Both the position numbers and the translations under genes were made by a program. Positions 1 to 16,010 of a stretch of DNA of 18,967 bases are shown here, piece after piece. Every line of letters begins with the position of its first letter. Within the stretch, counting starts at the first letter, position 1. Below the pieces are notes generated by a model. That model saw only the letters and a program-made list of their open reading frames with translations, did no database searches and was not told the DNA's origin. The stretch comes from Dehalococcoidales bacterium (GTDB lineage: Bacteria; Chloroflexota; Dehalococcoidia; Dehalococcoidales; Fen-1064), in the NCBI GenBank assembly GCA_028712845.1, contig JAQTPO010000024.1:1-18967 (forward strand). Reading direction: 5' to 3'.

Positions 1-237
1 CCTTTATCTGAAATAGTCCGTGCATTTAAAACCTATTCCTCACGGAAAATCAATGAACTCAGTAATTCTCAAGGCAAACCGGTCTGGCAACGCAACTATT
101 ATGAACATATAATTCGCAATGAAAGTGATTATCTCCAAATTGGAAAATATATCCTGTATAATCCGACCAAATGGGAATCAGACCGTGAGAATCCTGATGC
201 CAAATTAATAAATCCGCCTTTACCCTTCGAACATTAG
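1..237 (+). CDS. REP-associated/IS200-like transposase, C-terminal part (cut by window edge)
   Basis: An open frame enters at base 1 and ends at TAG 235-237, giving 78 residues. It contains the stretch GKPVWQRNYYEHIIRNE followed by a YILYNP motif and a Trp. This is the usual C-terminal signature of the Y1 (HUH) single-strand transposases of the REP-associated tyrosine transposase group, which act on hairpin ends of small repeats or IS200/IS605-like elements. The catalytic HUH and Tyr residues would lie upstream, outside the window, so activity cannot be judged. No obvious element end or target repeat is visible in the short gap after the stop. It converges with a decayed minus-strand gene. 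The family call is from memory of the motif and is fairly firm; whether it is RAYT or another Transposase_17 subgroup is open. Confidence 0.8.
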   Translation, partial: PLSEIVRAFKTYSSRKINELSNSQGKPVWQRNYYEHIIRNESDYLQIGKYILYNPTKWESDRENPDAKLINPPLPFEH

Positions 238-9691: not shown

Positions 9692-9916
9692 TTATTTCTT
9701 CAGCGACTCAATGAAATCATCTACATTTATTTCCGTAATATTGAGGATTTTCCGCAGAACGCCACGTCCTAACTCCCGATGTTTAGGCACTGGAACAGGC
9801 GGGCGTCCATGACAAACTAACCAAACATGACTTCCTCTAGTGCGGGCTACCTGATAACCAAGCCGTTGTAGCGCTGAAATACATTCGTCACCAGAGACCA
9901 CCGGTAATTTGGTCAC
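9692..9916 (-). CDS. hicA: HicA family mRNA interferase toxin
   Basis: HicA toxins are small double-stranded-RNA-binding-fold ribonucleases that cut mRNA and tmRNA. The 74-residue protein shows the family pattern: a Gly-x-Lys-like start (VVSGDECISALQRLGY), then RTRGSHVWL with the catalytic His, then VPVPKHRELGRGVLRKIL. The start is GTG 9914-9916; it overlaps the hicB stop by 4 nt (GTGA), so translation is coupled to the antitoxin. Full length and no lesions suggest a working toxin. The order is antitoxin first, the common hicBA layout for short HicB proteins. Confidence 0.93.
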   Translation of the reverse strand: MTKLPVVSGDECISALQRLGYQVARTRGSHVWLVCHGRPPVPVPKHRELGRGVLRKILNITEINVDDFIESLKK

Positions 9917-10137
9917 GAGACAACAACCTCAACTTCCTCCATGAGGTACTTTTCGGGAACGGTTTCTCCCATTTCGCTCATGTGTTCTAAGCAAAGCTGT
10001 ATCACTTCTTTGATATTGGATAGGGCTTCTTTCTTGGTCTTACCCTGGGTGAAACAGCTATGCAATACAGGGACTTCAGCTACAAAGTAACCATCTTCAT
10101 CCTGAGTGATAACAACCGGCAGTTTCAGTACTTTCAT
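9913..10137 (-). CDS. hicB: HicB family antitoxin
   Basis: This is the partner antitoxin of HicA, which binds and blocks the toxin. The 74-residue protein has the partial RNase-H-like HicB fold signature: VVITQDEDGYFVAEVPVL, then CFTQGKTKKEALSNIKEVI. No helix-turn-helix or ribbon-helix-helix extension follows at the C-terminus, so DNA binding by this short form is uncertain. ATG 10137 has GGGGAGGTG just upstream. The extended -10 at 10169-10177 would drive the pair. Confidence 0.93.
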   Translation of the reverse strand: MKVLKLPVVITQDEDGYFVAEVPVLHSCFTQGKTKKEALSNIKEVIQLCLEHMSEMGETVPEKYLMEEVEVVVS

Positions 10138-11298: not shown

Positions 11299-11517
11299 CT
11301 ACATCTCGTGTATCGCCTGAATCTCCACGCCGACTTTATCCAGCGTCTCTTTGACCTGTGCTTGCTCATACAAGTTAAAACGGATGGCAATACCGCAATC
11401 GCTGGAGAACTGGCGCGGTGTAGGAACCAAAGTCACAGCGTAACCCTTGCTATTTAAGGCTTTCTGCGCCTGCATTGCAGAGGATGTAGTATGGAAAAGA
11501 GCAACCCCGTATTTCAT
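11299..11517 (-). CDS. DUF3343 / putative Se/S carrier-like protein
   Basis: The 72-residue protein shows the DUF3343 signature: FHTTSSAMQAQKAL, then VTLVPTPRQFSSDCGIAIRF, with conserved Cys41. The family is described as a putative selenium/sulfur carrier-like protein and is often found beside cysteine desulfurases, TusA/YedF proteins and SelD. The Cys is thought to hold a persulfide or perselenide, which is not proven. Its ATG overlaps the stop of the desulfurase gene by 4 nt, so it is the last member of a coupled four-gene operon. It would accept or hand on the sulfur or selenium released by that enzyme. Confidence 0.85.
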   Translation of the reverse strand: MKYGVALFHTTSSAMQAQKALNSKGYAVTLVPTPRQFSSDCGIAIRFNLYEQAQVKETLDKVGVEIQAIHEM

Positions 11518-12662
11518 TTACGAACGACCTTCTCAATTGCTATTAGCGTCTTCCGGATGTCTTCCGGTGTGGTAAAGACGCCGAGCGCCAGTCTCACCGT
11601 ACCTTCCGGGAAAGAACCGATGGTCTTATGCGCTAACGGAGCGCAGTGCAAACCGACACGAGCCAGTATATCATATTTTTCATCCAGCTTGAAGCCAATA
11701 TCCGAGACATGTTGACCGGCGACCGTAAAAGAGACGGTGGCGACAGATTGCGTAGAGTTCCGGCAACCGTACACCTTAACGCCTTTCATCACAGATAAAC
11801 CCTCAATTAATGCCTGTGTCAGTGCCTTTTCATTTTCCCTGATTGCCGTAACGCCTCTTTCCTGGAGCCATCGTATTCCGGCGCCCAGTCCGGCAATCCC
11901 AACAGTATTAGGAGTGCCGCTCTCATATTTATCCGGCAGGTAATCCGGCTGAACATCCAGTTCGGATTGGCTGCCCGTACCGCCACGAATGAACGGACTA
12001 AGAAGAGCAACATCGACGCTTTCTCCGATTACCAGCCCGCCGATGCCGGTGGGACCCAACAATCCTTTATGTCCGGTGAATGCCAGCAAATCGATATCCG
12101 TTGTCTGGATATCGATAGGCACAGCGCCGGCGGCTTGCGCCGCATCTACCAGTAACAGCGCGCCGGCACGATGAGCAATCCGGGCAATTTCATCAATCGG
12201 CAGGAGCGTGCCTGTGACATTGGAGGCATGGACCGCTACGACGAGCTTTGTTTTATTACTGACCACTTTCGCCAGTTTTCCGACATCGAGACTGCCGTCC
12301 TCATTGCACTGAGCAATATCCAGTTTAATCCCTTTATTCTCCAAATCACGCAGGGGACGCATCACCGCGTTGTGCTCCATCGAGGTCACTACCACATGGT
12401 CACCGGGCTTCAGCAAGCCGTAGAGAGCCAGATTAATGGCGTGGGTGGCATTACCTGTAAAAATGACTTTCATCGGGTCGTGACAATTAAAAAGTTGTGC
12501 AATGGCTTCTCTGGTATCATACACAATCTGCGCCGCCGAAATGGAAAGGCGGTGACCGGAGCGGCCGGGGTTCCCCCCGGCGCGCTCCAGAACATCGGCA
12601 ATTGCTTTCAGCACTTCCGGCGGTTTAGGCCAGGAAGTTGCCGCATTATCCAGATAAATCAT
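11514..12662 (-). CDS. Class-V aminotransferase: cysteine desulfurase / selenocysteine-lyase-like
   Basis: This PLP enzyme should release sulfur from cysteine (or selenium from selenocysteine) as an enzyme-bound persulfide or selenide. Of 382 residues, MIYLDNAATSWPKP is the classic opening, VDAAQ (Asp173) holds the PLP ring nitrogen, Lys199 in FTGHKGLLGPTG binds PLP, and Cys340 in RVGLHCAPLAHKTIG is the catalytic Cys. The RVGLHCAP(L/W)AH pattern points to the cysteine desulfurase family often called TIGR01977 rather than IscS or classic SufS. Its ATG overlaps the TusA-like gene by 4 nt, and its stop overlaps the DUF3343 gene by 4 nt. The neighbours suggest a role in selenium or sulfur delivery; substrate preference cannot be read from the sequence. 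Confidence 0.92.
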   Translation of the reverse strand: MIYLDNAATSWPKPPEVLKAIADVLERAGGNPGRSGHRLSISAAQIVYDTREAIAQLFNCHDPMKVIFTGNATHAINLALYGLLKPGDHVVVTSMEHNAVMRPLRDLENKGIKLDIAQCNEDGSLDVGKLAKVVSNKTKLVVAVHASNVTGTLLPIDEIARIAHRAGALLLVDAAQAAGAVPIDIQTTDIDLLAFTGHKGLLGPTGIGGLVIGESVDVALLSPFIRGGTGSQSELDVQPDYLPDKYESGTPNTVGIAGLGAGIRWLQERGVTAIRENEKALTQALIEGLSVMKGVKVYGCRNSTQSVATVSFTVAGQHVSDIGFKLDEKYDILARVGLHCAPLAHKTIGSFPEGTVRLALGVFTTPEDIRKTLIAIEKVVRK

Positions 12663-12880
12663 TTCTGTAACACCATTCGATAACTACCTCCCGATCTGGT
12701 TTCCACCGTTAATTTCCAGCCCAGATTCTTTGCCAGGCGGGTGACATTTTCCAGTGCCGTAGTTGTGTCAACAAGCACTTCAAATGTGCCTTGCTTTGCC
12801 TTTTGTAGAGCCTGACGGGTCATCAATACCGGCTGCGGGCAGGAAAGCCCGCAGGCATCTATTGTCCGGATATTGTTCAT
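12659..12880 (-). CDS. TusA/YedF-type sulfur carrier protein
   Basis: The 73-residue protein is a complete SirA/TusA domain: IDACGLSCPQPVLMTRQAL contains the CPxP motif with sulfur-binding Cys14, preceded by Cys10. Proteins of this family carry a persulfide from a desulfurase to acceptors. Full YedF proteins of selenium loci usually have a second, DsrE-like domain of about 100 residues; that domain is absent here, so this is a stand-alone carrier. The gene overlaps yedE upstream (4 nt) and the desulfurase downstream (4 nt). The context makes it the likely partner between the membrane transporter and the desulfurase. Confidence 0.92.
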   Translation of the reverse strand: MNNIRTIDACGLSCPQPVLMTRQALQKAKQGTFEVLVDTTTALENVTRLAKNLGWKLTVETRSGGSYRMVLQK

Positions 12881-13980
12881 GCTTTCACCTCCCGCATCGT
12901 CAATCCAATGATAGCACAGACTGCCAGTCCGACAAGCACAGTAACAGGTCCAAAAGCAGCCGTACCCGTCCCTGAACTGGCAATACTGAATGTATGGGCA
13001 AAGCCGGTGCCGACAATCATACCGGTAACGAAAATACCGGCATCGCCATCGCCTTCACCGGCGAGGAAGAGTTGTCTGCCGGGACAACCACCTGCCAGCG
13101 TGAAAGCCAGCCCGGCAAGCACCATCCCGCCGAAATTCCACCACTGGTCGGTATGCGCTGCAGGTTGGTTGGCAAAACCGGGATGGAACTGTCCCAATAT
13201 CAGGTTCATCACAAAGGCAACGACGACAAACGCAATGATACCGTTAAACAGATGCGTATCCTTGAGCATAACGACATCACGGATTGCGCCTACGGTACAG
13301 AAGCGGCTTCGCTGAGCAAGGAAACCGATAACCAGTCCTGCCGCCAGCGAGATAATGAGCAGGGCGTGTTGACTGCCCGGACCTTTGACAGAGAAGTTAA
13401 TCGGACCTGTGAGATTGCCGCTGGCATCCCTGCCGAACTGCGGTTGGAGGATAAGGAGCACAAGCAATACAACCATCACGATTGGCATTACCCAGCCTAA
13501 TGCCTTTGGCGCCGGGTGATTTCTCCCCAGGCTGAAACCGCGTCTCAGGAAAAGGATGCCGATGACTATCCCCACCCCCAGTCCAAGAATGCCGAAAATA
13601 GCGTTCCAGTCACCGCCTGCAAGCCGAAGATAGGCGCGCCAGGGACAGCCCAGGAAAACTAACGCGCCGAAAGCGGCAAACATACCGAGAAAGAATCTGA
13701 CCAGAGGAGCAGAGCCGGTGCGGGGTTTGAATTCGCGGAAAGCCAGTGCGGCAATGAATGCCCCCAGCAAGCCGCCGATGATTTCAGGACGGATATACTG
13801 GACGGTGGCAGTGTTATGCAGCCCCAGAGCTCCGGCAATATCACGGCAAAAACAGACCATGCAGATACCCATATTGCCGGGATTACCCAGTTTAACAAGA
13901 ACAGTGGCGATAATACCGATGATGCCGCCGGTGAGAATCGGTCCCCAACGGGACGTGAGAAAACGTGAAATAGCAGACAC
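12877..13980 (-). CDS. yedE: YedE/YeeE-family membrane transporter, selenium-type
   Basis: This polytopic inner-membrane protein of 367 residues has about ten hydrophobic segments. Key motifs are NPGNMGICMVCFCRDIAG near the N-terminus, FLGCPWRAYLRLAGGDWN in the first half, RSRFCTVGAIRDVVM in the second, and GGCPGRQLFLAGEGDGD near the end. The two-fold arrangement of Cys-containing YeeE/YedE repeats matches thiosulfate or selenium-compound transporters. The NMGICxxCF and RAYLRLAGGD stretches are those I associate with the YedE/FdhT selenium-metabolism subgroup. Start is GTG 13980 with AAGGAG 8 nt upstream. It is the first clear gene of a four-gene coupled operon behind the promoter 14210-14238. 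Whether selenium or sulfur is carried needs experiment. Confidence 0.88.
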   Translation of the reverse strand: MSAISRFLTSRWGPILTGGIIGIIATVLVKLGNPGNMGICMVCFCRDIAGALGLHNTATVQYIRPEIIGGLLGAFIAALAFREFKPRTGSAPLVRFFLGMFAAFGALVFLGCPWRAYLRLAGGDWNAIFGILGLGVGIVIGILFLRRGFSLGRNHPAPKALGWVMPIVMVVLLVLLILQPQFGRDASGNLTGPINFSVKGPGSQHALLIISLAAGLVIGFLAQRSRFCTVGAIRDVVMLKDTHLFNGIIAFVVVAFVMNLILGQFHPGFANQPAAHTDQWWNFGGMVLAGLAFTLAGGCPGRQLFLAGEGDGDAGIFVTGMIVGTGFAHTFSIASSGTGTAAFGPVTVLVGLAVCAIIGLTMREVKA

Positions 13981-15580: not shown

Positions 15581-15763
15581 ATGCCAATCTATGAATATGA
15601 ATGTCAGAAATGTGGCAAGAAATTCGAGTATTTTCACTGGTTCGGTGGAGATGAAAAGCAACTAAAGTGCCCAAAGTGCGGCGACGAGAAGCCGCAGAGG
15701 CTTATGTCTGCCACTGCCGGGGGTTGTTCAGGAGGTTCCTGCGCCCCCAGGAAATCAACCTGA
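15581..15763 (+). CDS. FmdB family zinc-ribbon protein
   Basis: This 60-residue protein opens MPIYEYECQKCGKKFE, the FmdB/CxxC_CxxC_SSSS hallmark, and has two zinc-binding pairs: Cys8/Cys11 and Cys30/Cys33. A Gly/Cys tail (GGCSGGSC, Cys49 and Cys54) follows, common in the family. FmdB proteins were named as putative regulators of formamidase/amidase operons, but most are functionally unassigned. ATG 15581 has AAAGGAGGG 6 nt upstream. It is the first gene of a plus-strand unit whose second gene is the predicted selenoprotein, divergent from the DUF362 gene across a palindromic operator. Confidence 0.93.
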   Translation: MPIYEYECQKCGKKFEYFHWFGGDEKQLKCPKCGDEKPQRLMSATAGGCSGGSCAPRKST

Positions 15764-15795: not shown

Positions 15796-15833
15796 AAAGA
15801 TGAGCTGCAATAAATACAATGAAAGGGAAATCA

Positions 15834-16010
15834 ATGATATTGTGGTTAGTAGTTGGCGGTTTAGCCGGGGCGGTTATCGGTGGTCTGGTAGGTTATCTGG
15901 GGAAATGCTCCGGCAGTACTTGAAGAATAACATCCAGTCCCTGGTCAGGGGCGATTATTGGTGCGTTGTTCGGATTGGCGATTGTGCTGGCTATTACTTC
16001 CAGTTCTTAA
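15834..16010 (+). CDS. Small membrane selenoprotein, DUF6132-like (TGA read as selenocysteine)
   Basis: The reading frame ATG 15834 to TAA 16008-16010 has 59 codons with one internal TGA (15921-15923, residue 30). It encodes a hydrophobic helix rich in Gly (LWLVVGGLAGAVIGGLVGY, residues 3-21), the segment KCSGST-TGA-RITSSPW, and a second helix (GAIIGALFGLAIVLAI). DUF6132-type proteins, as I recall them, have two such helices joined by GCSxGTCPITSxP; here Cys25 and the TGA match the two Cys at identical spacing. A hairpin with a GGUC loop, 19 nt after the TGA, matches a bacterial SECIS. AAGGG lies 6 nt before the ATG; an in-frame ATG at 15819 has no clear ribosome site. If TGA were only a stop, a 29-residue fragment would result and the perfectly preserved second helix would be unexplained. 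A Cys-to-stop mutation remains the alternative. Confidence 0.75.
15937..15952 (+). promoter_or_regulatory. Predicted bacterial SECIS element
   Basis: GTCCCT (15937-15942) pairs with AGGGGC (15947-15952) in a 6-bp stem (one U-G pair) closed by the tetraloop GGUC. The exposed G-U in the loop is the SelB contact known from the E. coli fdhF SECIS, whose loop is also GGUC. The loop begins 19 nt after the TGA here and 18 nt in fdhF, within the range usual for bSECIS elements. Confidence 0.72.

Follow-up and report, generated by a model that had tools for sequence, protein, structure and literature searches.

A small gene in an 18,967-nucleotide stretch of a Dehalococcoidales genome (hereafter the window), together with its relatives in other Dehalococcoidia, very probably represents an undescribed selenoprotein family, as judged from comparative sequence analysis. 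The predicted proteins belong to the DUF6132 family (PF19628), are about 70 residues long or shorter, and would carry selenocysteine (Sec), encoded by an in-frame TGA, at the position where their relatives have the second of two conserved cysteines. A 2026 catalogue comprises 119 prokaryotic selenoprotein families (PMC13188914 Table 1), among which DUF6132/PF19628 has no entry, in agreement with the initial annotation of this DNA, whose author knew of no described selenoprotein of this kind. The nine families of PMC12013277, as far as the accessible part of that article goes, do not name DUF6132, and the NCBIfam models assigned to its three hypothetical-protein families in PMC13188914 Table 1 gave no match to members of the present family. 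In the open-licence literature we found no report on DUF6132, on PF19628 as a selenoprotein, or on Dehalococcoidia selenoproteins of this kind; a report elsewhere is possible.

If the assignment is correct, the selenoproteome gains a family whose selenium site belongs to a membrane protein no longer than about 70 residues, and the role of selenium in the uncultured Dehalococcoidia becomes testable with a very small protein. It would also provide a functional clue for DUF6132 as a whole, namely that the second Cys is chemically critical, because Sec replaces it in all 23 genes found here, whereas the first Cys can be shifted or absent.

The window gene and its predicted product

The initial annotation had described a 58-residue frame, protein-like on both sides of a single in-frame TGA placed four residues after a Cys. 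Translation gives the same coordinates and the same C-x4-TGA spacing (Table 1), the product being MILWLVVGGLAGAVIGGLVGYLGKCSGST-U-RITSSPWSGAIIGALFGLAIVLAITSSS; a second in-frame ATG is found upstream of the start codon, at 15819. The proposed membership in DUF6132 is borne out as well, since the window protein, with Cys put at the TGA, scores 41.2 bits against the Pfam model (cut-off 23.2, E 1.2e-10) in a match that covers residues 5-53 and hence extends across the TGA. None of the NCBIfam models exceeds its cut-off for the window protein, and in a scan of the 23 family members a single member matches a single model, weakly.

Table 1. Features of the window and, in the last five rows, loci of the paralogue in other genomes
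Feature	Position	Strand	Basis
Putative Se/S carrier protein	11299..11517	-	PF11823, 81.1 bits, cut-off 25
Cysteine desulfurase family	11514..12662	-	TIGR01977, 481 bits over 377; selenocysteine lyase SclA model 404, below 525
TusA-family protein resembling YedF	12659..12880	-	PF01206 over cut-off; TIGR03527 60.3 bits, below 110
YedE-type putative selenium transporter	12877..13980	-	TIGR04112, 478.7 bits, cut-off 200
FmdB-type zinc-ribbon protein gene, 70 nt upstream of the DUF6132 gene	15581..15763	+	TIGR02605
Shine-Dalgarno-like AAGGGA, 5 nt before ATG	15823..15828	+	Read from sequence
DUF6132 candidate selenoprotein gene, 58 aa, Sec at residue 30, stop TAA	15834..16010	+	Translation and PF19628 match
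Codon TGC of Cys25, putative Sec partner	15906..15908	+	Cys in 18/23 Sec genes and in each of the 31 C-x4-C proteins of 36 database matches
TGA, predicted to be read as Sec30	15921..15923	+	Translation; TGA at the aligned codon in 23/23 genes
bSECIS-type hairpin GUCCCU-GGUC-AGGGGC, 6 bp, tetraloop starting with G	15937..15952	+	Folding; codon constraint; covariation
Tail-TGA paralogue	L043:1495-1806
Tail-TGA paralogue	L044:1492-1803
Tail-TGA paralogue	L048:1360-1656	-
Tail-TGA paralogue	L049:411-707	-
Tail-TGA paralogue	L050:1357-1656	-

An AlphaFold2 model of the window protein places helices at residues 2-22 and 36-57, with low confidence (mean pLDDT 66.7, about 55 in the loop). Both predicted helices show the glycine-zipper spacing GxxxGxxxG, which is shared with the glycine-zipper families PF13441, PF13488 and PF05433; the window protein matches these profiles weakly but scores below their cut-offs. 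To our knowledge, the definitions of these families include no Cys/Sec pair. Across the 23 Sec proteins, Lys and Arg average 1.87 per loop compared to 0.13 and 0.43 in the flanks, which are partly cut. By the positive-inside rule, this concentration suggests that the loop between the helices is cytoplasmic in the Sec proteins; for the other DUF6132 forms (31 counted, one skipped), the same counts are indecisive as to the side of the loop.

TGA-form relatives in the Dehalococcoidia

Profile searches of whole genomes, with stops read through, yielded 22 further TGA-form genes in 21 sampled Dehalococcoidia genomes, of which G150 carries two, and all 23 genes have TGA at the same aligned codon. 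When PF19628 was run against the class of G004 (Dehalococcoidales bacterium isolate STB_135, one of the TGA-form carriers), 9 of 393 sampled genomes matched, with ten genes over the cut-off that each contain exactly one TGA. A later search of the same 393 genomes with a 23-row profile matched 11 of them and brought no additional intact gene, the extra two matches being a truncated copy in G002 and a paralogue in G308. At the level of the order of G342, a profile of the Sec genes matched 27 of 156 genomes, 18 of which have TGA at the site and five of which have the paralogue described below; four were set aside. A phylum sample of 400 genomes held true TGA forms only in G004 and G245, and none of 299 genomes from the phylum of Propionivibrio exceeded the cut-off. 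With Cys substituted for Sec, PF19628 recognizes 20 of the 23 members at an E-value of 0.01 or lower.

The Cys-x4-Sec pair proposed for the window protein recurs widely, as C-x4-U is found in 18 of the 23 genes, but it is not invariant: three genes (G004, G806 and G815) have CU instead, and two (G829 and G150b) have no partner Cys at all. No clear Cys form at the site was seen among the sampled Dehalococcoidia genomes. A 57-residue frame containing GYLGQVSGDVSGNCRIKNSPYSGAIF (G163:C19:3311-3412, within L076, G163:C19:1-9000) has Cys at the site and gives a weak partial match (E 3.8e-4); it is either a degenerate Cys form or a product of chance. The truncated G002 copy, a DUF6132 gene without its first half (MIWRATSNPWSGA...) at about 1490-1600 of L091 (G002:C66), lies directly after the apparent end of a thioredoxin gene, and has kept the hairpin described below while showing TGG where TGA would be expected.

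Cysteine forms and other database relatives

A database search with the Sec profile, in which scoring was confined to the 7996 candidates sharing most words, returned 36 proteins, which were inspected singly and checked by script. Thirty-one are full-length C-x4-C proteins, four (P0031, P0032, P0034 and P0035) stop exactly before the Sec site, and one, the metagenome protein and close relative P0004, has Trp at the Sec position (KCSGSGWIITSSPW). Homologues had been expected to carry either Cys or TGA at this codon, and this is largely what we find, with TGA in all 23 genes and Cys in 31 of the 32 full-length database relatives. The Trp of P0004 could stem from a TGA called with another genetic code or from a true TGG. 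That four proteins break off at the site suggests truncation of these genes by gene callers at the TGA, so the family is probably under-annotated.

The Cys forms typically read KCSSGTCPLTSNP, their named sources, given for a few, being Omnitrophica and Verrucomicrobia. They contain the motif GCSxGTCPITSxP, with its second Cys at the place of the TGA, as the initial annotation had stated, and in an alignment of 26 of the 31 rows both Cys are invariant. Cys and Sec forms have in common the two hydrophobic glycine-rich helices, the residue pair in the loop and the TSxP motif. The Sec members differ in having a TGA-encoded Sec for the second Cys and in not always keeping the first, and the residue following the site is Gly instead of Pro in 18 of the 23. 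In a tree that sets the 23 Sec rows beside 30 other sequences, of which 29 are Cys forms and one is P0004, the two kinds are separated by one branch, the support of which is very low (17/7), so that a single Cys-to-Sec change is no more than compatible with the tree.

A hairpin downstream of the TGA

Published limits for bSECIS elements are a loop of 3-9 nt with G in the first two places, a stem of 4-16 bp, a spacing of 16-37 nt, and a minimum free energy (MFE) of -7.5 or lower (PMC13188914). All 23 genes are able to form a hairpin after the TGA with G in the first two loop places, and loop, stem and spacing fall within these limits across the family. The loop starts 18-20 nt past the TGA, except in G811 and G812, where two extra codons bring the distance to 25 nt. 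In the window, the hairpin starts 13 nt and its GGUC loop 19 nt after the UGA, the stem has 6 bp, and a 45-nt stretch has an MFE of -9.5; the bare hairpin, at -7.4 kcal/mol, is just short of -7.5 if the limit applies to the hairpin alone. The corresponding 45-nt stretches fold at -8.5 kcal/mol or lower in all 23 genes. Seven of the 23 bare hairpins are weaker than -7.5 kcal/mol, among them those of the window and of G816 (-3.9); in G816 another fold is favored and the hairpin is not the lowest-energy structure.

Taken alone, the window hairpin is not significant (fold z -0.83; 89 of 1000 synonymous recodings were as stable), and the number of recodings giving an equally stable hairpin ranges from 4 to 494 of 1000 trials per gene. 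Its significance derives from the family. In every one of the 23 genes, the hairpin has CCC for Pro and GGG for Gly, compared to 38 GGG among the 226 other Gly codons of the same genes and to a local usage of 13-47% CCC and 14-38% GGG at the 22 loci with enough codons. In a 22-nt alignment of these sequences, which are related rather than independent, four of seven stem pairs are changed on both sides in a compensatory manner; covariation amounts to 0.164, compared to 0.108 (sd 0.014) in shuffled alignments, none of 500 of which reached as high a value, and 85.7% of the cells are paired, compared to 83.0% (sd 0.8). All six slid versions score lower, and the further pair types are not unusual (41 of 500 shuffles). 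A stem is also kept despite amino acid changes in the hairpin, namely Trp and Ser to Arg in G802 and Ala to Ile in G836.

With its in-frame UGA, Cys homologues, bSECIS-type hairpin and Sec near a Cys, the family resembles the bacterial selenoproteins with CxxU or CU motifs (PMC13188914 Table 1), from which it differs by the C-x4-U spacing and by the predicted two-helix membrane scaffold of about 70 residues or fewer.

Selenocysteine machinery and gene neighborhood

The TGA form had been expected in genomes that use Sec, and this holds for most carriers. SelB (TIGR00475) exceeds its cut-off in 17 of the 21 carrier genomes compared to 5 of 20 order-mates without the gene (Fisher p 0.0005), and a tRNA-Sec of at least 60 bits is present in 15 of 21 compared to 6 of 20. 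One or both are found in 19 of 21 carriers compared to 6 of 20 order-mates (Fisher p 9e-5), the 20 comparison genomes being the first listed rather than a random draw. The threshold of 60 bits was chosen by us; weaker hits, which reach 57 bits, probably represent serine or leucine tRNAs, and all 14 control genomes give matches at E 0.001. The two carriers with neither SelB over the cut-off nor a clear tRNA-Sec, G754 and G836, have assemblies that are fragmented by their contig numbers; that of G754 amounts to 0.9 Mb, and in G836 a SelB-like fragment, some 48 positions long, lies close to the end of a contig. Across the class, tRNA-Sec shows no significant association with the gene (7/9 compared to 21/36, p 0.45) because Sec use is common there.

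In the window, the four minus-strand genes from the Se/S carrier to YedE form a compact selenium-type cluster near the DUF6132 gene. Five of seven loci with YedE relatives come from Dehalococcoidia, Dehalococcoidales or Chloroflexi MAGs (75-81% identity), the remaining two being a 69% partial match in one of those MAGs and a Propionivibrio locus (58%); this distribution points to Dehalococcoidia as the probable source of the window. The FmdB-type gene is perhaps in the same operon as the DUF6132 gene, and FmdB is likewise found upstream on the same strand in G046 and G069. There is no single conserved operon among the Sec-DUF6132 loci, and the neighbors vary. In G046 and G069, a 4Fe-4S ferredoxin-type gene ends 2 nt short of the start codon; in G836 this gap is 48 nt, and a thioredoxin and a YgaP-like transmembrane protein are also encoded upstream. 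Single cases are a peroxiredoxin after the G815 gene and MsrB after the G817 gene, and glutaredoxin-PDZ proteins are encoded near G150b (Pfam-tested) and, by BLAST cluster, near G342 and G817. A methyltransferase precedes the genes of G245, G275, G362 and G755 (one Pfam-tested), and what we take to be a UvrB-like gene comes next after those of G816 and G829; these two kinds of neighbor give no support for a redox role.

Proposed mechanism and alternative explanations

In our view, it is very likely that the TGA is a selenocysteine codon, in a scheme of which we infer the redox part. SelB with Sec-tRNA would read the TGA through, with the hairpin 13 nt downstream as a guide, to give a 58-residue product with two glycine-zipper transmembrane helices, the connecting loop of which would hold Cys25-x4-Sec30 where the Cys relatives hold Cys-x4-Cys. 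At the membrane surface, probably on its cytoplasmic face, the Sec selenolate would be the reactive group. Where Cys25 is present, Sec30 could form a selenenylsulfide with it, and a thioredoxin or ferredoxin system would recharge the Sec, so that the protein may act as a small membrane redox relay or reductase. Since two of the 23 genes are without any Cys partner, the selenenylsulfide cannot be general. The second position would be the essential one, because Sec is constant in the 23 genes while the partner Cys varies, and the first Cys would probably act as the resolving one.

Two explanations dispense with selenium altogether. If the TGA were an ordinary stop, the gene would encode a 29-residue peptide, or be a pseudogene or the result of a sequencing error, and the downstream frame would be a relic. 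This may account for the four database proteins that end there and for the G002 copy without its first half. However, all 23 genes share this TGA and conserve both protein and hairpin beyond it, and a relic would be expected to lose the frame, the DUF6132 score and the stem pairing; we regard an ordinary stop as extremely improbable. Decoding as another amino acid, such as Trp via a changed code or leaky read-through, would fit the Trp in P0004 and the TGG in the truncated G002 copy. This is very improbable, given that TGA is an ordinary stop elsewhere in the same organism, where it terminates five of the 12 other window frames examined (yedE, yedF, desulfurase, DUF3795 and fmdB), that full-length database relatives with a single exception have Cys at the site, and that the SECIS-type hairpin is accompanied by SelB and/or tRNA-Sec in nearly all carrier genomes.

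A different question is whether the Cys/Sec pair of a genuine selenoprotein might bind or pass on metal or selenium rather than serve thiol redox chemistry. Several neighbors point this way: on a Riemerella plasmid, 2 nt separate a Cys-form DUF6132 gene (GCSTGTCAITSKP) from the heavy-metal-associated-domain gene that precedes it; G046 and, judged by sequence similarity, G069 have ArsR-type regulators some 0.9 kb upstream; and the window gene is near the selenium cluster. Moreover, a Sec-containing putative mercuric transport protein has been catalogued (PMC13188914 Table 1). We nevertheless think such a role unlikely, if well short of implausible, as the thioredoxin, ferredoxin, peroxiredoxin, MsrB and glutaredoxin-type neighbors beside several Sec genes speak for redox chemistry, and as a partner Cys that is absent in 2/23 and shifted in 3/23 fits a reactive selenol more readily than a site built from two ligands.

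A paralogue with TGA in the C-terminal tail

Five order-mates (G791, G792, G793, G794 and G308) contain a DUF6132-like paralogue (24.6 and 25.2 bits in the two tested) whose loop has neither Cys nor Sec and whose tail is like DGCGTERPKFG-TGA-APFNWG, the frame remaining open for 24-30 codons beyond the TGA; the G793 paralogue is without the tail Cys. In three of the five, a simple 8-bp hairpin with the loop CGGG(A/G)A follows 20 nt after the TGA, and the other two have only 3 bp there without a bulge. A database search returned 49 proteins, 40 of which end in FG, as if at that stop; one, P0079, continues into a similar tail (INWGLVEELEQKED), with no Cys at the site. Codon differences after the tail TGA show no third-position preference. 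These features are suggestive of a second selenoprotein family candidate.

Downstream of the tail paralogues, a ferredoxin-like gene is present in three of five cases and an FmdB-like gene in three of five by script, with a fourth read from the DNA, all named by motifs. It is conceivable, though doubtful when all parts are taken together, that the DUF6132 scaffolds of the Dehalococcoidia form a membrane selenol relay with the 4Fe-4S ferredoxin and the FmdB zinc ribbon. A minimal two-helix oligomer would take up ferredoxin electrons at a Sec on the membrane surface, and in sister genes the Sec would have shifted from the loop between the helices into the C-terminal tail, so that one fold would have given rise to two new selenoprotein families.

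Elsewhere in the window, a HicA/HicB-type toxin-antitoxin pair is found at 9692-10137 on the minus strand (PF07927, 49.9 bits; PF15919, 38.1 bits), and positions 1-237 (+) hold the end of an IS200-like (Y1_Tnp) transposase-type frame that scores just under the Pfam cut-off.
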